From contig JAKIUC010000002.1 in NCBI GenBank assembly GCA_021647785.1, positions 62,001 to 126,000 of the forward strand: a stretch of DNA of 64,000 bases, written 5' to 3'. A program made the position numbers and the translations under genes. Source of the stretch: Melioribacteraceae bacterium (GTDB lineage Bacteria > Bacteroidota > Ignavibacteria > Ignavibacteriales > Melioribacteraceae). The notes under the pieces were generated by a model, which was not told the origin of the DNA, did not search any database, and saw nothing but the letters and a program-made list of their open reading frames with translations. Shown piece after piece: positions 29,076 through 40,719 of the stretch (its first letter is position 1; every line of letters starts with the position of its first letter).

Positions 29076-30302
29076 TTATTTTTCTAATAACCATTCAAAG
29101 ACATTTTTATGAATTATGCCGGATTTGTTTTGAGTAAAAGAGTCTGTTGTCAATAAATATTTTGGATAATTATCTTTTATAGTTTCCAGTGGTGTAAATT
29201 CTCTTTTTTGAGTTTCATGATTTGAAATTTCCCAAGAAACTTGATAATATTCAATTTCACCATTTCGATTTTTAATAGTAAAATCCACTTCTGCGTTACG
29301 CAATCTGCCTGTCCATACTTTATAACCTTTCCTTAATAATTCAAGATATACAATATTTTCAAGAATATGTCCTTTGTCGGTAGTTCTTTCTCTACCAATC
29401 AACACATTTAACAAACCTACATCTACAATATAATATTTTTCCAAAGTTGCAAGTTGCTTTTTACCTTTTATGTCAAAACGATTAACTCTGTAAAACACAA
29501 AACTTTCAACAAGATATTCAATGTGTTTTTCAACGGTTAGGTGATGTACATTTTGCTTGTCAGCCTTTAATGCTTTTGATATACTGCTTGGTGAAACTTG
29601 GTTGCCAATATTATTCGCCAAAAACCTAATAAGATTACCAAATGCCCTTTTATCTTTAATTATGTGTCGTTGAGTTATATCTTTTTCGATAATAGTCGTA
29701 TATAAAGCATTCAGATATTCGTATATTTTATCATATCCTCCTTCTCGCAAATCAATTCCTTTGGGCAAAGAAGTTTCATTTACATAATCATAAAATAAGG
29801 CTTCGTAGTTTAGGTATTTATTGCTTATGTTTATATTTCTACCTTGTAGATATTCGGCAAAAGAAAATGGTAAAATGGAAATCTCAATATACCTTCCGCT
29901 CAATAAAGTTGCTAACTCACTTGATAGCAAATTTGCGTTAGAACCTGTAATATAAATATCTGTATTTTCTGTGGCATAAAGTCCATCAACTAACCTTTCA
30001 AAATCAGGAATATTTTGAATCTCATCAAGAAAGATGTAATTAATTTTATCAGATTGTAATCTTGATTTTATTTCAAAATACAGCGTATCCCAAGATTTAT
30101 TCAGAAAATTTTCGGGTAATTCAAAATTGTAAAATTGTACTTGTCTATCTGTTACTTCTTTTTTTGATAAATCATCTCTAAACATTTGCAAAAGTGTGGA
30201 TTTGCCTGAACGACGCAAACCCGTTACAACTTTGATAATATCTTTGTCTTTATACGACAATAATTTATCAAGATATTCTTTTCTTATAATTCTTTTATTC
30301 AT
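29076..30302 (-). CDS. DUF4143-containing AAA+ ATPase
   Basis: This 408-residue P-loop ATPase has Walker A VTGLRRSGKSTLLQMF (Lys34), Walker B YIFLDEIQNI, the sensor DIYITGSNANLL and LSGRYIEISILPFSFAEYL. The C-terminal DUF4143 half includes KYYIVDVGLLNVLIGR and the nuclease-like VDFTIKNRNGEIEYYQVSWE. The family is abundant in Bacteroidota, archaea and mobile regions; its function is unknown. ATG 30302 is preferred over the upstream TTG 30320. It sits beside the attC-like structure, between CNNM and mmsA, so it looks like a mobile single-gene cassette. Confidence 0.88.
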   Translation of the reverse strand: MNKRIIRKEYLDKLLSYKDKDIIKVVTGLRRSGKSTLLQMFRDDLSKKEVTDRQVQFYNFELPENFLNKSWDTLYFEIKSRLQSDKINYIFLDEIQNIPDFERLVDGLYATENTDIYITGSNANLLSSELATLLSGRYIEISILPFSFAEYLQGRNINISNKYLNYEALFYDYVNETSLPKGIDLREGGYDKIYEYLNALYTTIIEKDITQRHIIKDKRAFGNLIRFLANNIGNQVSPSSISKALKADKQNVHHLTVEKHIEYLVESFVFYRVNRFDIKGKKQLATLEKYYIVDVGLLNVLIGRERTTDKGHILENIVYLELLRKGYKVWTGRLRNAEVDFTIKNRNGEIEYYQVSWEISNHETQKREFTPLETIKDNYPKYLLTTDSFTQNKSGIIHKNVFEWLLEK

Positions 30303-32018: not shown

Positions 32019-32252
32019 ATTGTTTCCTCAAAGATTTATTTAAAATTATGGTTGCTGATATTACTCATAGTGTAGAGAACAAAGTAAAATAGTTAGTTAT
32101 CTCAACAAATAGGGTTTGAAGATAGAGATAATTAACTAAAGTTTCAAACAAAATTAGACTATACAATCTACACTTTATTAGTTTGGATTAAATGATTTTG
32201 GAAGGCAATTCATTATCAATTAAATTATTTTTGCGAATTTCCGATAAAATTC

Positions 32253-32283
32253 TTGTTATAAATAAAACAATTATTTAGCTTTG
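32253..32283 (+). promoter_or_regulatory. Bacteroidota-type promoter of the cysteine leader
   Basis: TTG (32253-32255), exactly 20 nt, then TAGCTTTG (32276-32283), a perfect TAnnTTTG -7 element. Initiation a few bases downstream would place the start almost at the leader peptide ATG (32295), giving a nearly leaderless first message. Confidence 0.6.
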
Positions 32284-32294
32284 CACATCAAATT

Positions 32295-32375
32295 ATGAAA
32301 AATGAAAAACAAAATATCGCAAGTAAATTCAATTCAATGAACGCATGTATGTGTTTGTGCTGCATTAATTGTTGA
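32295..32375 (+). CDS. Cys-rich leader peptide (26 residues) of a probable attenuator
   Basis: ATG 32295 to TGA 32373-32375 encodes a 26-residue peptide whose end is NACMCLCCINC, five Cys codons (TGT, TGT, TGC, TGC, TGT) at residues 18, 20, 22, 23 and 26. The stop codon is the start of TGAAGGG (32373-32379), which is perfectly complementary to CCCTTCA (32425-32431), the 5' arm of the next terminator. A ribosome stalled on Cys codons would leave TGAAGGG free to pair and block the terminator; a ribosome reaching the stop would cover it. This is the classic amino-acid attenuation layout, here sensing charged tRNA-Cys before a sulfate-assimilation operon. The mechanism is inferred from sequence only. 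Confidence 0.75.
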   Translation: MKNEKQNIASKFNSMNACMCLCCINC

Positions 32376-32420
32376 AGGGATTATTACTGATATTTGTTTT
32401 ATAACATAGAATTTTTATTA

Positions 32421-32450
32421 AAAGCCCTTCATTTCTGAAGGGCTTTTTTT
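32421..32450 (+). terminator. Attenuator terminator 1 (cysteine-responsive, inferred)
   Basis: AAAGCCCTTC (32421-32430) pairs perfectly with GAAGGGCTTT (32437-32446) around ATTTCT, then runs into T residues. Competes with the TGAAGGG segment of the leader peptide. Confidence 0.85.
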
Positions 32451-32461
32451 GTTTAAAAAAT

Positions 32462-32558
32462 ATTTATCAAGAAAGGTCGAGGAAACAGGTCCTATGACGC
32501 CTTAGCAACCGCCAAAATGGAAAGGTGCTAAATCCTGCCCTACAAGGGAAAGATAAGA
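32462..32558 (+). ncRNA. SAM-I (S-box) riboswitch
   Basis: The core shows the S-box signatures in order: TTATCAAGAAAGG with P1 TTATC (32464-32468) pairing with GATAA (32552-32556), GAGGAAACAGGTCC, TATGACGCC then TTAGCAACC, and AAGGTGCTAAATCCTGCC. These are the conserved SAM-binding elements of RF00162. Binding of S-adenosylmethionine should favour the terminator at 32570-32605 and shut off the downstream sulfate genes. Confidence 0.93.
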
Positions 32559-32569
32559 GTAGAAAATTA

Positions 32570-32605
32570 AACCTCTCTGGTACTTTCTCCAGGGAGGTTT
32601 TTTTT
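32570..32605 (+). terminator. SAM-I riboswitch expression-platform terminator
   Basis: AACCTCTCTGG (32570-32580) pairs with CCAGGGAGGTT (32589-32599) with one mismatch or wobble, followed by eight T. It ends 14 nt before the DUF2061 start. Confidence 0.9.
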
Positions 32606-32619
32606 ATTCACTAATACTA

Positions 32620-32859
32620 ATGGATTTTATGAAAGAGAAATTTAAAAGAAGTCTTGTAAAGACATTCTCATGGAGAATTACAGGTACTTTAGATACAATT
32701 GTTGTATCGTATTTTATAACTGGAGATATAAATACTGCCGCAGCAATTGGTGTTGTTGAGGTATTCACAAAACTGCTCCTTTATTTTCTTCATGAAAGAA
32801 TTTGGAACAGAATAAAGTATGGAAAAGAACCATCAAATAATATTGAATATCATATATAG
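32620..32859 (+). CDS. DUF2061 small membrane protein
   Basis: This 79-residue protein has the DUF2061 pattern FKRSLVKTFSWRITGTLDT, then two hydrophobic helices (IVVSYFITGD..AAAIGVVEVFTKLLLYFLHE) and RIWNRIKYG. DUF2061 proteins recur beside or fused to sulfate-activation genes in Bacteroidota, hence a suspected but unproven role in sulfate or sulfite handling at the membrane. First gene of the operon after the riboswitch; a second in-frame ATG lies at 32629. Confidence 0.8.
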   Translation: MDFMKEKFKRSLVKTFSWRITGTLDTIVVSYFITGDINTAAAIGVVEVFTKLLLYFLHERIWNRIKYGKEPSNNIEYHI

Positions 32860-32871
32860 GAGAGAAAGAAA

Positions 32872-33585
32872 TTGGAGATTGAAAAGGAAAACCAAATTAT
32901 CAGCAACTTATTGGCTGAACAGATATTGGAGAGATATATAAGTTCTAACAAAGGGAAAATAGCTTTGGCTACCAGCTTTAGCATTGAAGACCAGGTTCTT
33001 ACAGATTTGGTTTTAAAGATTGACCCTAACATTAAGATATTTACTTTAGATACCGGAAGACTTTATTCCGAAACACATCAATTAATTGATAGAACAAATG
33101 AACATTTCGATATTAAAGTTGATATCTATTATCCAAATAATTTTGCACTTGAAAAATTTGTTAAAGAGAAAGGAAGTAATTCCTTTTATGAAAGTTTGGA
33201 AAACAGAAAACAATGCTGCGACATAAGAAAAATTGAGCCTTTAAAAAGAGCATTAAAGGGGATTGATATTTGGATTGCAGGCTTGCGAAAAGAACAATCG
33301 TTAACAAGAACTAATCTAAAAATTATTGATAAAGATTTGTTAAATGAGAATCTAAAATTGTATCCCTTATTAAATTGGACTGAGGATGAGGTTTGGGAAT
33401 ATATCAAAAAAAACAATATACCCTACAATCCCCTTTATAATAAGGGCTTTTCAAGTATTGGCTGTGCACCTTGTACACGTGCTGTAACTGTGGCGGGTGA
33501 TATACGGAGCGGCAGATGGTGGTGGGAAAACCCTGAAACAAAAGAGTGCGGATTACATTTACCAAAAGGAGTTTCAAATGGATAA
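32872..33585 (+). CDS. cysH: Assimilatory adenylyl-sulfate (APS) reductase
   Basis: The 237-residue enzyme reduces activated sulfate to sulfite. Cys115-Cys116 (RKQCCDIRK) and Cys198/Cys201 (GCAPCTRAV) are the four ligands of the [4Fe-4S] cluster that marks the APS-using type, and Cys226 in ECGLHL is the catalytic thiol. No CysC kinase is in the operon, which fits direct use of APS. TTG 32872 is the start: AGGAGA precedes it by 8-9 nt, and no ATG is near. It overlaps cysD by 8 nt. Confidence 0.94.
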
Positions 33586-34459
33586 TTTAGAAAAATTAGA
33601 AGAAAAAGGAATTTATATTCTTAGAGAGGCATACAGAAATTTTGATAACCTTGCCATGCTTTGGTCAATAGGGAAGGATAGTACAGTACTTTTGTGGCTT
33701 GCTCAAAAGGCTTTTCTGGGGCATGTTCCTTTTCCGCTTGTACACATTGATACTTCATTTAAGATACCCGCAATGATTGAATATCGAAATAATTTGATAA
33801 AGAAGTATGGTCTCAATTTAATTGTTGGTCAAAATAAAAATGCAATTAAAAATAAAGAAACTTTTCCTGATGGTAATACTGATAGACTTGTGTGCTGCAA
33901 GAAGTTAAAAAGCGATGCTCTTAACAAATCACTTTCGGGCGAATGGGAAAGACACCGTTTGGATTTAACAACAGGAGAGTTTGTTGTTGATGAAAACAGG
34001 GAAGCCTATACTGGCGTTATAGTTGGCGTGCGTGCGGATGAAGAGGGAAGCCGCTCGAAGGAGAGATATTTTTCGCCGCGCGATAAAAATGCAGATTGGG
34101 ATGTTGGAGATCAGCCCCCTGAATTTTGGAATCAATTTAAAACCGATTTTGAGCCAGGCACTCATGTACGAATTCATCCATTATTAGATTGGACTGAACT
34201 AAATATTTGGGAATACATTAAAAGTGAAAATATACCTGTAACCGATTTGTATTTTGATAATGGAAGTGGGGAAAGATACAGATCGCTCGGATGTTTTCCT
34301 TGTACTAATTCGGTTCAATCAACTTCAAAAAATGTGGATGAAATAATTGAAGAATTGAAATCAGGAAAGTTTGCAAATATTGCGGAGCGTTCCGGACGTG
34401 CACAAGATAGCGAAGGTGGTGGCACGCTGGAAACATTGCGCCGCGAAGGTTATATGTAA
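33578..34459 (+). CDS. cysD: Sulfate adenylyltransferase subunit 2
   Basis: This 293-residue ATP-pyrophosphatase forms APS from sulfate and ATP with CysN. It has [19 protein letters not shown] (PP-motif), [39 protein letters not shown] and the C-terminal [21 protein letters not shown] longer frame opens at 33497, but that part is cysH read out of frame; ATG 33578 with AAGGAG 7 nt upstream is the real start, overlapping the cysH stop. Confidence 0.94.
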
Positions 34460-34489: not shown

Positions 34490-35866
34490 ATGAAAGAAAG
34501 AATGGATGTAGTAATTGTAGGTCATGTAGATCATGGCAAAAGTACTTTAGTTGGAAGACTTCTAACCGATACGGGTTCACTTCCTGAAGGGAAATTAGAT
34601 GCGGTAAAAAAGCTTTGCATTAGAAATGCTAAGCCATTTGAATATGCATTTCTACTTGATGCGTTAAAAGATGAGCAATCTCAGGGTATTACAATTGATA
34701 CTGCAAGAATATTTTTTACTTCTGCTAAGCGAGAGTATATAATAATAGATGCACCTGGTCATATCGATTTTTTGAAAAATATGATAAGTGGAGCTGCAAG
34801 AGCTGAAGCAGCAATTTTATTGATAGATGCTGATGAGGGGATTGCAGAAAATAGTAGAAGACATGCGTATATGCTCTCTTTGCTCGGTATAAAACAAATT
34901 GCTGTAGTAATAAACAAAATGGATTTGTGCGAATACAGCGAAGAAGTTTATAACAAAATTAAAACCGATTTTGGAAAATACTTAAAAGGGATTGGGATTG
35001 AATCAAAAGCCTATATTCCAGCTTCTGCCAGAAACGGAATAAATTTAATTGATATTTCAGAAAAAACAAGTTGGTACAATGGAGTCTCGCTTCTAAATGT
35101 TATGGATTCATTTACGAAAGAAAAAAGTCTGAAAGAGAAACCTCTGCGAATGTACTTGCAGGGGATATATAAATTTCAAGGAGATAAAAACAAAAGAAGA
35201 ATTTATGCAGGAAGTATTAGTTCCGGCGAATTAAAAGTAAATGATGTAATCGGGTTTCTTCCATCAAATAAAAAGACAACAATTAAATCAATTGAGGTTT
35301 TTAATAGAACAGGAATTGAGACGGCTGTTTCTGGTAACGCTATTGGCTTAACGCTGGATGAAGAACTATATGTAACCGAAACAGATTTAATATATAAAGT
35401 TGATGAAGAAAAACCTTTATTGAGCGATAGGTTTCTTGCTAATATATTTTGGATGGATAGTGAACCGTTAAGAACTGCGAAGGAATACAAATTCAAAATG
35501 GGTACTCAAAATATTTCTGCTTCAATAGAAAAAATTGAGAGTGTTCTTCATACTTCTGAGCTTACCAGCAATACAGATGCAAGTCTTGTTAAAAAACATG
35601 AAGCAGCAAAATGTATAATAAAAACAAGGAGAAAAATTCCATTTGATTTAGTAAATCAGAACGTAAATACCAGTAGATTTGTGCTTGTAGATAATTGTAA
35701 TATTGTTGGCGGAGGTTTAATAATTGAGAACCTTTATGAAAATAATAGAAAAAAAGAGTATTCAAATTTTGAACTTGAGTTTAACCAATTAGTAAGAAAA
35801 CACTTTCCACATTGGGAAGCAAAATCACTTGAAGGAGAAATAAATGAGCAAGGTAGTTTTATATAA
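34490..35866 (+). CDS. cysN: Sulfate adenylyltransferase subunit 1 (GTPase)
   Basis: The 458-residue elongation-factor-like GTPase drives APS formation. It has G1 GHVDHGKST (11-19), G3 [12 protein letters not shown] and G4 NKMDL, followed by two beta-barrel domains. No APS-kinase domain is fused to the C-terminus, in line with the APS-type cysH. The end overlaps the sulfite reductase start by 23 nt, indicating tight coupling. Confidence 0.94.
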
Positions 35867-37727
35867 TGTCACATTAAATGAATTGGAAGTAGCTCTATCT
35901 GAAAGAGATTTAAATAGAGATGAACTTAATAAACTTAAGAATGGAATACTTGGCGGAAATAAATTAAAGGATGAACTGGAGAATTTTGATAAAGATGATA
36001 TAGATAAAACTGTTCAAATTCATATTAAATCGCACGGTATATATCTACAAACTGATCGTGATGAACTAAAGAATAAAAACAAAGTATTTACTTTTTTGGT
36101 TCGCATCCCTTTCTGGGGAGGTGGAGATATTTCGGCAGAGCAATTTTTACAAATTAGCAAACTCTCTGATAAATATTCCAAGGACGAATTTGGTAAACCA
36201 TCGATGCGGCTTACTACAAGGCAGGCAATTCAATTTCATAGAGTAAAGAAAAGTGATTTATTTCCTTTGGTGAAAACATTAGCAGAGATGAAATTATTAA
36301 CTCTTAATGCTTGTGGTGATAATACAAGAAATCCCATAGCAAGTCCAATAAAATCAAGCATATTTGATGCCTCGGCATTAGCGGTTCGGTTAGGGCAATA
36401 TTTCCAATTACCTGTTAAGGAGCATTTAGAAACATTTGGAATAGAGAGTAGTAATCATCAGCAAAATGTTGGATACAAATATGGAAAAGAAGGATTGCCC
36501 CGAAAATTTAAGATTGGAATTGCCGGCTACTTTATTGATGAAGAAACAGGAAATGGAATTAGAGATAACAGTCCGGATATTCAAACGAATGATCTTGGCA
36601 TTGCTCCAATAATTAAAAACAATAAAAAAGTTGGATACCAAATATATGTTGGGGGCGGACTTGGACAGAAGAATGGAAAGGTTACTCTTGCACTACTTGG
36701 CGTACCTTTGGGTATTGTAAATAGTGATGATGAACTAATTAAAGTTATTGAAGAGGTAGTTAATATTTGGAGTGCATTGGGCGACCGAAAAAACAGGCAT
36801 TATGCACGTATCAAAAATATGATTGTGAAAAAAGGATTAGATAGAGAAAAATTAGAAATAGAAGACATTTTAAATGATAAAACGAAACTAAGTATTGTTC
36901 AAAAGAGTGGTGTAGCTTGGTTGAAAGAGAAGTTGGTAAAAAGAAATTTAAAAATAAGAGACGCTCTAAACTTAAACTTAGGCAAGCAATTACGGCATCA
37001 TGGTTGGATAAAACAATTTGACGGAAATTATACTTTTGGTCTGTGGATTGAAAATGGAAGAATCAGCGATTCCAGAAACAACGTAAAATCTATGGTTGAA
37101 AAAATTGTAAATAAATTGAAACCAAATATACGTCTAACAACTTTTCAGGACTTACTGTTAACTGACATCAAAGAGGAAGATAAAAATATATTAGAAAATA
37201 TATTTACCGAATATAATTATTCACTTCCGTCCTACCTTGTTAGAAACTCTTTGGCATGCGTTGGGCTGCCTACTTGCGGGTTATCTGTTGCTGATTCTGA
37301 AAGGTATTTTATGCCGTTAATGAATGAGCTGGAAAAACTTGGATTGGAGAACATACCCAAGCTAACCGTTGGTATCAGTGGCTGTGAGCGGCATTGCTCG
37401 CGGAATATACGTCATGCTGTTTCTATTGAAGGAAAAAGTTTTGGGTTTTATCAGTTAAAATTATTATTTGGTAAAACAGAAGGGGAGGTACTTGCTGAGG
37501 ATATAGTTTATAACGGCAGAAAATATTTTAGGTCAGTTGCATCCTCTGATGTTCCAAAAGTAATTAAATTATTAGCAGATAATTATTTGGAGAACAAACT
37601 CCCTGACGAGATAGAAATTGGATTATTCTTTAAAAGAATTGGACACAAAGGAATTGTAAAACTAATAGAGCAAGATGAAAATCTGAACCATTTAACAGAG
37701 AAAACTTATGACCCATACATTACATAA
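35844..37727 (+). CDS. Siroheme/4Fe-4S sulfite (or nitrite) reductase
   Basis: This 627-residue hemoprotein carries the siroheme-cluster cysteines Cys472 and Cys478 ([11 protein letters not shown]) and Cys514 and Cys518 ([12 protein letters not shown]), the canonical C-x5-C and C-x3-C pattern. The N-terminal half shows two ferredoxin-like half domains ([20 protein letters not shown], then [14 protein letters not shown]). Context (between cysN and siroheme synthase) points to sulfite to sulfide reduction. No CysJ flavoprotein is present, so ferredoxin or another donor is likely. ATG 35844 has AAGGAG upstream. The last 20 nt overlap the next gene. Confidence 0.92.
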
Positions 37728-39063
37728 AATAATTAGATATGAGGAAGTGATTGCTCCCCAAAGTGAACTCAATACTTTACCTATATTATTGAGGAATCCG
37801 AAGATACTACTGATTGGCGGCGGTAAGGTAGCTCTACAGAAAGCCGAAGTTTTAAAAGATAATAATATAGATTTCAAAATCATCACAATTAATATACTTC
37901 CGCAATTTAAAAAGTTAGATATAAAACCGAGTTTAAAACCAATAGAAGTTGAGGATATAAAGAGGTTCAATATTGTAATTAATGCTACAGGTAATAAGGA
38001 TGTTGAATCTTTAATCGACAAATGTAAACTAACCCAATCCTTTCTTCTAAATACAGTAGATGTTCCTGAAAAGTGTGATTTCTATTTTTCAGCTTTGTTA
38101 AATTATGGAAAATTAAAAGTTGCAATTTCCAGTGATGGAGCAAGTCCAACTATTTCTAAGATAGTTCGCAATAAAATTAAAGAGGTTATTCCTTCTAATA
38201 TTGAATCTTTAGTAGATACCGAATTTGAAAAAAGAAGATCAAAAATAATTGATATTAAATCGGTAAATAGGGATGCAGAGAGTCTATTTGGCTCTGTAAC
38301 ATTTGTTGGTGCCGGACCAGGCGACCCCGATTTACTTACTGTAAAAGGATTGAAAGAAATTAAAAAAGCCGATGTAATTCTGCACGATTATCTTGTAAGT
38401 AAAGAGATACTGAGTCTTGTTAATCGAGATACAAAAATAATTAATTGCGGAAAACCACATGGCAGTAATAATCTAACGCAAGAAGAGATAAACAATAAAA
38501 TGGATTATTATGTAAGAGAAGGAAAAAGAGTTGTACGCTTGAAAGGAGGCGACCCCTTTGTTTTTGGACGATTGGTTGAGGAGACAGAATATCTGATAGC
38601 AAATAATATTAGATTTGAAATTATACCTGGCATTACCTCTTCCATTTCCGGAGCCGGAAGTGCTTTTATTCCTGTTACGGCAAGAGGTACCTCCAATGGA
38701 TTTTCGGTTGTCTCGGGATGTTTGAAAGGGAATAGGTTTAATGATAATTGGATTGAACTTCTGAAAATTCCGAACCATACTACGGTAGTTTTAATGGGGT
38801 TAAAAAAAGCATCGATAATAGTTGAAAAGGCTTTACGGATTGGTGTAAAACCAAATCTTCCAGTAGCTATTATTTCCAATGCGACATTACCAAACCAAAC
38901 AGAAATTTTTACAACATTGGAAAATCTTGCATCTCAGAGCATAAATGTACCTACTCCAGCAATTCTTGTGTTTGGGGATGTTGTTAATCTTAGAGATAAA
39001 TTGAAATCTAATAAAAACATTCTTGAACAAAACTTGAAAAATACGTTTGAGTATTATTCGTGA
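37708..39063 (+). CDS. cysG: Fused siroheme synthase (precorrin-2 dehydrogenase plus SUMT)
   Basis: The 451-residue protein makes siroheme for the reductase encoded upstream. Residues about 20-185 form the NAD-binding precorrin-2 dehydrogenase/ferrochelatase part (KILLIGGGKVALQKAEVL, INATGNKDVESL, ISSDGASPTISK). Residues about 197-440 form the SAM-dependent uroporphyrinogen-III methyltransferase (VTFVGAGPGDPDLLTVKGL, RLKGGDPFVFGRL, VVSGCLKGN). The order of domains matches CysG. The start overlaps the reductase gene by 20 nt. This is the last gene of the SAM/cysteine-controlled operon. Confidence 0.93.
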   Translation: MTHTLHKIIRYEEVIAPQSELNTLPILLRNPKILLIGGGKVALQKAEVLKDNNIDFKIITINILPQFKKLDIKPSLKPIEVEDIKRFNIVINATGNKDVESLIDKCKLTQSFLLNTVDVPEKCDFYFSALLNYGKLKVAISSDGASPTISKIVRNKIKEVIPSNIESLVDTEFEKRRSKIIDIKSVNRDAESLFGSVTFVGAGPGDPDLLTVKGLKEIKKADVILHDYLVSKEILSLVNRDTKIINCGKPHGSNNLTQEEINNKMDYYVREGKRVVRLKGGDPFVFGRLVEETEYLIANNIRFEIIPGITSSISGAGSAFIPVTARGTSNGFSVVSGCLKGNRFNDNWIELLKIPNHTTVVLMGLKKASIIVEKALRIGVKPNLPVAIISNATLPNQTEIFTTLENLASQSINVPTPAILVFGDVVNLRDKLKSNKNILEQNLKNTFEYYS

Positions 39064-39496: not shown

Positions 39497-39793
39497 TTAA
39501 TTTTTGTCCCTTTTTTGCCAATAATACGGCTTTTTGTGTAGATGAGATACTGCGATAATATAAATATAATCCGATTTTATTTGATATATTACTCCAAATG
39601 GAAATTTGTTTGTTAGACAACGACGTGTGTTTTTGGATAGCTTTGCAAATGCTTCGGGAAATGCAATTATCCGTTTAATAGTTGTGTAAACTTCTTCTGC
39701 GAAATTAAAACCAAGATTTTTTTCGCATCTGTTGTAATATTCAATTGCCTCATTAAGTTCGTTTTCGGCATCTTTGTGAAAGATAAATTTCAT
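39497..39793 (-). CDS. RelE/ParE-family toxin (second TA pair)
   Basis: The 98-residue product starts MKFIFHKDAENELNEAIEYY at ATG 39793, one base after the antitoxin stop codon. An upstream extension of the frame merely overlaps the antitoxin gene. The pattern HKDAENELNEAIEYYNRCEK with AEEVYTTIKRIIAFPEAFAK and FPFGVIYQIKSDYIYIIAV is typical of ParE/RelE toxins in the plasmid-stabilisation family. The target (gyrase or ribosome) cannot be told by eye. Confidence 0.85.
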   Translation of the reverse strand: MKFIFHKDAENELNEAIEYYNRCEKNLGFNFAEEVYTTIKRIIAFPEAFAKLSKNTRRCLTNKFPFGVIYQIKSDYIYIIAVSHLHKKPYYWQKRDKN

Positions 39794-39794
39794 T

Positions 39795-40022
39795 TTAATA
39801 CTGTGAACGAATTTTTCTAAAAACTTCTTCGCCATTTATGGCTTCGGCTGTCCCGTTGTTCAATTCTTCTACGCGCTTTTCGGCTTCAATTGCCCATGCT
39901 TTATCTATGCTATCTTGCAGAGGTAAATTTAAACTTTTAATTAATTCATCAACTAAAATAATTCTTTCGTTTGATGGCAGCAACATTGCTTCGGCTGCAA
40001 CTTTGTTTGTTAAAGCATTCAT
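39795..40022 (-). CDS. Addiction-module antitoxin (TIGR02574-like)
   Basis: The 75-residue protein reads AAEAMLLPSNERIILVDELI, then DKAWAIEAEKRVEELNNGTA and GEEVFRKIRSQY. This matches the family of small antitoxins with a helical N-terminus and a conserved WAIEAEKRVEE block found upstream of RelE/ParE toxins. It is directly followed by the toxin, and a Shine-Dalgarno-like GAGA lies before ATG 40022. Confidence 0.85.
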   Translation of the reverse strand: MNALTNKVAAEAMLLPSNERIILVDELIKSLNLPLQDSIDKAWAIEAEKRVEELNNGTAEAINGEEVFRKIRSQY

Positions 40023-40084: not shown

Positions 40085-40719
40085 TTATTTTAACAGAATC
40101 ATTTTTTCAAAGTTATTTGGCATTGCAAAATATTCTAAAAAGTAATTGTCTAAATTAACATCTATCATTTTCTTTCGCAAGTTGTATGTTTTGTAATGTT
40201 TTAGTAAACCAAGATATGAATTTATATTTGCTCTAAATGCTTCTTTTTCTTCTTTTGTTGATTTCCCTTTTGTGGGTTCAATTAAATCGTTCCAGTAATC
40301 TATTTTAAGAAAGAGGTTTTTCTTAATCCGTTTACCGGCGTATATTCTGTGTGGTTTTTTGAGCATTGGCTAATAAATCGATTTATTCTTTTTATTCCGT
40401 AATGCGTCCCTTTTCCTTTACGGCAACTGTAAGTATCATGAATAAATGTTTTTTCAAAAAGTGGGTTAATGTATTTAAAAACAAGATGGTGAACAATGCG
40501 GTCTCTAAAATCTGCTGCAAAAATTTCTCGTTTTATTGGCGAAAAGTTTATGAAGCAAATAGAGTTAGAAATTTTATATGTGCCATTTTTAATTTCTTCG
40601 TATAGTTCGAAAAGTTTCGATTCGTAATTAATCTCAAATGCTAATGCGTTTAGAGTATTCCGTTTGTTTTTACGTGCTTCAAAGTATGCGTTGAATATGT
40701 CTTCTAATAAAGTGTCCAT
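40085..40719 (-). pseudogene. Reverse transcriptase remnant lacking the catalytic palm
   Basis: Two frames overlap. The 5' part (from ATG 40719) has the RT finger region: EIKNGTYKISNSICFINFSP, REIFAADFRDRIVHHLVFKY and DTYSCRKGKGTHYGIKRINR. The 3' part, in another frame to 40085, matches the C-terminal thumb of the same family: KKPHRIYAGKRIKKNLF and INSYLGLLKHYKTYNLRKKM. Everything between, including the YxDD motif, is missing and the junction near CSKN shifts the frame. This is an internal deletion in a bacterial RT of the type seen in diversity-generating retroelements or related unknown-group RTs. It cannot be an active polymerase. Confidence 0.8.

Follow-up and report, generated by a model that had tools for sequence, protein, structure and literature searches.

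A putative leader-peptide attenuator for cysteine, perhaps methionine, supply in series with a SAM-I riboswitch ahead of cysH in a Melioribacteraceae bacterium

The window analysed here is a stretch of 64,000 nucleotides from a Melioribacteraceae bacterium (GenBank assembly GCA_021647785.1, contig JAKIUC010000002.1, positions 62,001 to 126,000 of the forward strand), in which the genes DUF2061-cysH-cysD-cysN-sir-cysG follow a short Cys-rich open reading frame (ORF), two predicted terminators and a SAM-I riboswitch (Table 1). The riboswitch begins thirteen bases after terminator 1, and cysH is, as far as the sequence alone tells, guarded by two terminators in series. A preliminary description of this DNA had placed one attenuator ahead of cysH-cysG; it was right about the leader and terminator 1 but overlooked the SAM-I riboswitch with its own terminator, and it also omitted the DUF2061 gene ahead of cysH. 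One more SAM riboswitch was found in the same genome, before metY, and no leader was seen there. On the minus strand of the window, a ParE-type toxin gene (PF05016) was located at 39497-39835, and two short overlapping ORFs at 40085-40719 were judged by eye to resemble reverse-transcriptase pieces, the larger of them without a Pfam match.

Table 1. Features of the cysH locus, in positions of the window.
Feature	Position	Strand	Basis or remark
Predicted promoter (TTGTTA 32253-32258, TAGCTTTG 32276-32283)	32253..32283	+	Bacteroidota-like
Leader peptide ORF, 26 codons, MKNEKQNIASKFNSMNACMCLCCINC	32295..32375	+	Sequence; matched in relatives
Internal ATG, could yield a 12-residue leader version	32337	+	Sequence
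Regulatory codon cluster, TGT ATG TGT TTG TGC TGC ATT AAT TGT	32346..32372	+	Sequence, positional profile
Putative antiterminator 5' strand TGAAGGG, overlapping the leader stop codon (TGA)	32373..32379	+	Sequence, pairing, geometry
Intrinsic terminator 1 (predicted)	32420..32447	+	12 pairs, 4-nt loop, T tract
SAM-I riboswitch aptamer, RF00162	32461..32559	+	Covariance model, 79.1 bits (cut-off 44.4)
Intrinsic terminator 2, presumed riboswitch expression platform	32569..32600	+	Hairpin finder
DUF2061 gene	32620..32859	+	PF09834
cysH-like gene, TTG start	32872..33585	+	PF01507, ORF
cysD-like gene, ATG start at 33578 (our choice)	33578..34459	+	PF01507, ORF
cysN-like GTPase gene	34490..35866	+	PF00009
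Sulfite/nitrite-reductase-family gene	35844..37727	+	PF01077, PF03460
cysG-like siroheme synthase gene	37708..39063	+	PF00590, PF13241, PF14824

The preliminary description had also proposed a 26-residue Cys-rich frame with its stop codon inside TGAAGGG, and complementarity of this heptamer to CCCTTCA in the 5' arm of a downstream terminator. Both were borne out: CCCTTCA lies in the 5' arm of terminator 1 at 32425-32431, 45 nt past TGAAGGG, and the best leader/arm duplex reaches -11.6 kcal/mol. Five Cys and one Met are found among the last 9 residues of the leader. The promoter site was called with what we take to be the Bacteroidota consensus. A strict form of this pattern, TTGA[CT]..TANNTTTG, was present upstream of 57/72 leaders and of 8/359 control ATGs; the window's own site did not match the strict pattern and is a weaker match. 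Screening of both strands of the whole window gave 25 terminator-like hairpins and 7 pairs of an upstream ORF (uORF) with a terminator, two of which passed a loose Cys/Met filter: the cysH leader and a pair on the minus strand (reverse-strand coordinates 29239-29337) with weak pairing (-6.3). The 7-bp complementarity in the window alone is within chance, as 7.5% of shuffled leaders pair equally well (p 0.075) and 41% of exchanged arms pair better with the window leader than its own arm does; the claim is therefore carried by the comparison with relatives. No T-box was matched by its covariance model, either in the window at the gathering score or within 32200-32640 at E<=1. Nor did a relaxed Rfam scan assign the leader to an attenuator family; the remaining matches with E up to 1 all fell short of their cut-offs, the best being Phe_leader on the terminator region (28.1 bits, cut-off 55).

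A CysH search of 79 genomes from the window's family yielded 13 full-length copies in 12 genomes. A leader with a terminator was found at 12 of the 13 copies; at the thirteenth (L030, the second copy of G063) the contig stops short, which leaves no basis for a judgement. At 11 of them the Cys/Met-rich leader and terminator stand immediately before DUF2061-cysH; in G016 the leader lies 4.3 kb upstream of cysH and heads a co-directional sulfate-transporter-like run, read by eye as solute-binding protein, two permease-like proteins, ABC ATPase-like protein, cysH and cysD. The leader, its Cys codons and its pairing thus recur before cysH in relatives, which is the outcome that the comparison proposed in the preliminary description had looked for. 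The four other genomes of the window's genus yielded no full-length CysH, and the nearest CysH to that of the window (L036, 77%) sits in another genus (G063), so that operon and leader may have moved together. When loci L001-L115 were scanned for uORFs with at least 3 Cys that precede a terminator, the device turned up in L038 and in relatives of the window, the remaining rows being on the other strand or beyond the cysH start. L009, L010 and L014, with few Cys and a larger number of Met, escaped this filter and were recognised separately.

Two architectures were observed downstream of terminator 1. Leader and SAM-I riboswitch occur together in the window, L007, L008 and L038. In L009-L012, L014-L017 and L126 there is no SAM-I match, and the riboswitch's place is occupied by a second uORF, which ends in three to five Cys codons followed by TAA and is separated from the next gene by a spacer of 74-142 nt without a terminator. 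Folding of these second uORFs gave no common structure, and they may act through Rho or translation.

Covariance models built from 12 leaders (R1) and 34 leaders (R2) were run over genomes. R2 at E<=0.001 matched in 63/164 genomes of the order, 8 of which had solely matches judged false by eye; 55 remain, G022 being weak. In the window's own genome its leader was the only R2 match. The genes behind the matches are mainly metY, cysH and cysK, and more rarely a sulfite-reductase-like gene or gamma-glutamyltranspeptidase, the latter in three loci (L143, L199 and L200, Pfam-tested in L143) whose leaders carry LCC in two cases and a weak LWC in L199. Other genes stand between leader and cysK in G158 (a hexapeptide-transferase gene directly before cysK, likely cysE) and in G093 (a DUF4395 gene). 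Cys-rich leaders also precede a carbonic anhydrase and two Omp28-like proteins with no obvious sulfur role (L194, L168 and L172). Among 391 sampled genomes of the class, 17 matches were found in 16 genomes outside the order, 5 of them with Cys/Met leaders. Three of the downstream genes there were Pfam-tested, giving two of the OsmC family (L225 and L228, behind Met/Cys leaders) and one sulfite/nitrite reductase; L230 and L231 are OsmC-like by eye, with a pairing that is less well placed and lies at the margin of the stretch searched. Matches without a Cys/Met leader were removed by eye (L137, L145, nine more, and 12 of the 17 outside the order), and 85 candidate leaders were reduced to 82 by leaving out one for which the finder gave no terminator and two duplicates. 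Most leaders came from models trained on such leaders with false matches cut by eye, so the figures for the 82 leaders are post-selection; the CysH-based search of relatives and a residue-blind search at cysK and metY served as independent checks. By these comparisons of sequence, the putative attenuator of the window is one member of a wider set of sulfur-gene attenuators.

In the residue-blind search, cysK and metY were sought by protein and found at strict cut-offs in 107 and 75 of 164 genomes, respectively. Seventy loci of each were taken, the gene start was located in 59 and 62, and the longest ATG-initiated ORF ending 8-50 nt before any intrinsic terminator was picked. No gene start was found by pattern at 11 cysK and 8 metY loci; these include the leader-bearing G065, G148 and G158 (cysK) and G054 and G055 (metY), so that the counts are low. 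At cysK, 13/59 loci had a qualifying pair, with 14 uORFs in which Cys was the commonest residue (12.5%, with Met at 3.6%); 12 of the 14 had at least 3 Cys and none had at least 4 Met. At metY, 42/62 loci qualified with 61 uORFs, and here Met was the commonest residue (14.4%, with Cys at 6.4%), 42 of the 61 having at least 4 Met and 18 at least 3 Cys. None of the reverse-strand controls (6 cysK and 14 metY uORFs) had at least 3 Cys or at least 4 Met. Cys in the cysK uORFs, Met in the metY uORFs and clean reverse strands indicate that the codons follow the pathway product. An ordinary terminator that happens to follow an unrelated short frame, with the SAM riboswitch doing all the regulation, would accord with the non-significant pairing of the window by itself; it is practically untenable against this residue-blind enrichment and the retention of the device before cysH in relatives, and since the gene upstream of the leader is divergent, the hairpin of terminator 1 is not that gene's terminator.

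The same codon specificity was observed in the curated set, where Cys exceeded Met in 12/12 cysK leaders, and Met exceeded Cys in 39/47 metY leaders with the reverse in 2; the cysK versus metY difference was not reached in 20000 permutations. The 13 cysH leaders carry Cys and Met equally often, with a mean of 2.54 each in the stall zone, and the cysH leader of G023 has one Cys and several Met. Of the cysteine-only sensing first proposed for this locus, the recurrence of Cys codons before cysH stands; given the equal frequency of Met, 'cysteine only' may be too narrow. Frame controls showed that the Met excess is strictly in frame (cysH leaders, 0.112 in frame, 0.006 and 0.012 in the other frames). 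Cys is enriched in frame in cysH and cysK leaders and not in metY and ggt leaders; in metY leaders the Cys codons of frame +1 match those of the reading frame in frequency (0.079 vs 0.067), and in the three ggt leaders they exceed them (0.097 vs 0.052). That cysteine alone is sensed, with Met codons as spare starts or by-products and the SAM riboswitch alone reporting methionine, remains possible, if rather unlikely. The preponderance of Cys at the end of the window leader fits this explanation, as do the cysK leaders, which are nearly Met-free (mean 0.42; none in 8/12). It is opposed by the in-frame Met excess, by the parity of the two residues in the cysH stall zone, and by the Met-dominated metY leaders, 10/47 of which have no Cys in the stall zone.

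Short peptides rich in Cys and Met are able to bind copper. On this ground, the nascent leader peptide could be the sensor in place of tRNA charging, by binding copper or another metal or by arresting the ribosome chemically; moreover, some leaders precede OsmC-family, carbonic anhydrase or Omp28-like genes, whose role is not plainly biosynthetic. We give this explanation very little weight, as the codons match the product of the pathway, with Cys ahead of cysK and Met ahead of metY, and the downstream genes are mainly those of sulfur amino acids.

The pairing between leader and terminator was specific to each locus. Across the 82 leaders, the duplex of the leader end with the 5' arm of its own terminator averaged -13.97 kcal/mol. 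When arms were exchanged among the 82 leaders the mean was -11.40 (sd 0.22), and within gene classes it was -12.00; in neither case did any of 20000 permutations reach the own-arm mean, although relatedness of the loci inflates these tests. The leader itself beat shuffled leaders at p<=0.05 in 62/82 loci, and 20/82 missed. Outside the GAAGG/CCTTC core, the first pair was formed in 41/59 loci (G-C 18, T-A 11, C-G 11), with 19.9 +/- 3.3 paired and a maximum of 31 in shuffles. The compensatory changes for which the preliminary description had proposed a check were thus seen at one pair next to the core. Covariation was weak farther out (at offsets +2 to +5, 199-385 of 5000 shuffles reached the observed value); offsets -1 and -3 were uninformative owing to an invariant arm, -2 nearly so, and 23/82 leaders without an anchored core were omitted from the test. 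Pairing was kept with other letters in L225 (CGGGAACGGA/GCCGTTCTTT), L316 (CAGAACGGGA/GCCCGTTTTT) and L359 and L367 (AGCTGACGTCGGC/ACCGGCTTCAGCA). The last two are the metY leaders MTLNSAMWMCMIMMFPQGS and MSMWMCMMIPLGS, which combine a very different terminator sequence with the same layout and pairing and are perhaps of independent origin.

The regulatory codons are so placed that a ribosome stalled on them would leave the pairing strand free. Counted back from the stop, Cys/Met codons made up a fraction of 0.60-0.65 at positions 10-15 and 0.43 at position 16, at most 0.11 at positions 1-6, and mostly at most 0.05 beyond position 20. When the entire leader and spacer were searched, the best helix ended -15 to +9 nt from the stop in 78/82 leaders. 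Ribosome states were modelled by folding only the RNA left free by the ribosome, up to the terminator loop; the terminator 5' arm was sequestered before the 3' arm exists in 81/81 stalled states, compared with 25/81 for a ribosome at the stop codon. The window's antiterminator was at about -12.6 kcal/mol, vs -3.7 when the last Cys codon is occupied by the ribosome. At full length, minimum-energy folds of the window favour the terminator (about -20 kcal/mol) even with a stalled ribosome; as the completed terminator is always more stable than the antiterminator, the choice must be kinetic. As to a pause or protector (1:2) hairpin, considered for the window alone, the fold without a ribosome had the leader self-paired and the terminator kept.

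Cys-run leader ORFs of mycobacterial cys operons were reportedly described by Canestrari and colleagues in 2020. For those operons the available part of one source reports Cys leaders and no conserved terminator hairpins (PMC1262725). Translational coupling or Rho, as proposed for mycobacterial polycysteine leaders, might likewise operate here with the hairpin as an incidental feature, and some relatives do carry a second Cys-run uORF without a terminator. In both systems a short ORF with Cys codons precedes genes of sulfur assimilation; the window differs in having a terminator and a putative antiterminator strand, and it is the second uORF of some relatives that fits the mycobacterial type better. 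For the leader itself we consider this mechanism very improbable: it is opposed by the terminator that follows the leader, with an antiterminator that is specific to each locus and covaries in part, by the narrow gap of 19-44 nt between stop and terminator, and by the riboswitch standing between leader and first gene.

We therefore regard it as highly probable that the leader and terminator 1 form a ribosome-mediated transcription attenuator for cysteine, and perhaps methionine, supply, placed in series before the SAM-I riboswitch. The attenuator proposed earlier is supported by the conservation, the locus-specific, partly covarying pairing and the codon position, while leader translation, ribosome stalling for want of charged tRNA, kinetically governed antitermination with read-through, SAM binding and the combined two-signal logic are inferred, with no experimental data. 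Transcription would start just upstream of the leader ORF, with a ribosome trailing RNA polymerase. When charged tRNA-Cys is ample, the ribosome at the stop codon would cover TGAAGGG, the terminator would form and transcription would end near 32450. Under a shortage of Cys-tRNA, the ribosome would wait on the Cys (or Met) codons and leave TGAAGGG free to pair with CCCTTCA ahead of synthesis of the 3' terminator arm, and the polymerase would read on. It would next meet the SAM riboswitch and pass only if SAM is low, so that full expression of DUF2061-cysH-cysD-cysN-sir-cysG would require both signals to be low.

The arrangement before metY was more varied. The Rfam scan covered 60/70 metY loci plus two more, and of the 58 loci both located and scanned, 22 had SAM-I alone, 23 had SAM-I with one leader, 13 had one or two leaders without SAM-I, and none had neither. 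Tandem leader-terminator units were observed before metY in 13 genomes (G016-G019, G021, G023-G025, G038, G054, G055, G065 and G066), with tandem Met-rich units at loci L128, L129, L130, L132, L133, L139, L140, L141 and L142.

Leader-peptide attenuation is textbook for trp and his, and the closest class to the set described here is classical ribosome-mediated attenuation. In common with the trp, his, leu and ilv attenuators, it has a short leader ORF near the 5' end with clustered codons for the pathway product, a putative antiterminator strand at the stop codon and an intrinsic terminator; it differs in its regulatory residues, which are Cys and/or Met, in its Ignavibacteria-like lineage, and in standing in series with a SAM-I riboswitch or a second attenuator. 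With the S box (SAM-I riboswitch, RF00162) it shares a full-length match and a terminator directly downstream of the leader unit, but the riboswitch is the second of two switches and the leader attenuator does not belong to the S box. Tandem riboswitches also place two sensor-plus-terminator units in series on one transcript, without the leader-peptide attenuator that forms one of the units here; the survey of contiguous riboswitches (PMC12452182) contains neither 'leader' nor 'Bacteroid-' in its main text. Leader-peptide systems had previously been shown in Proteobacteria and Actinobacteria, according to the accessible part of a report that adds a histidine leader in bacilli (PMC2965389). An article available in excerpt describes ilvB1 attenuation in Mycobacterium tuberculosis and assigns the Cys genes there to translation attenuation (PMC13236596), and the accessible sections of PMC4833913, PMC9094748, PMC1183508 and PMC2659441 contributed no terminator-bearing attenuator for Cys or Met. 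Among the matches listed in the literature search, Cys leaders were found only without terminators, and Met-coded attenuators, Cys attenuators with an intrinsic terminator and tandems of a leader peptide with SAM-I were all absent; most subscription papers were outside the coverage of that search. Within the literature among these matches, the Met-coded leaders and the serial stacking are the novel points.

For the Ignavibacteria-like lineage as a whole, we lean towards a set of leader-peptide attenuators that would be coded by Cys for cysK, Met for metY and both for cysH, include the first Met-coded transcription attenuators, and be stacked with SAM-I or a second attenuator, one transcript thereby integrating Cys-tRNA, Met-tRNA and SAM as a serial logic gate. 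The occurrence of metY with a SAM riboswitch, a Met leader, both, or two leaders amounts to sensors swapped on one gene, and offers a natural experiment in how the RNA sensors of one pathway replace one another and stack. In uncultured bacteria, the leader codons provide a readable hint as to which sulfur amino acid controls which gene.
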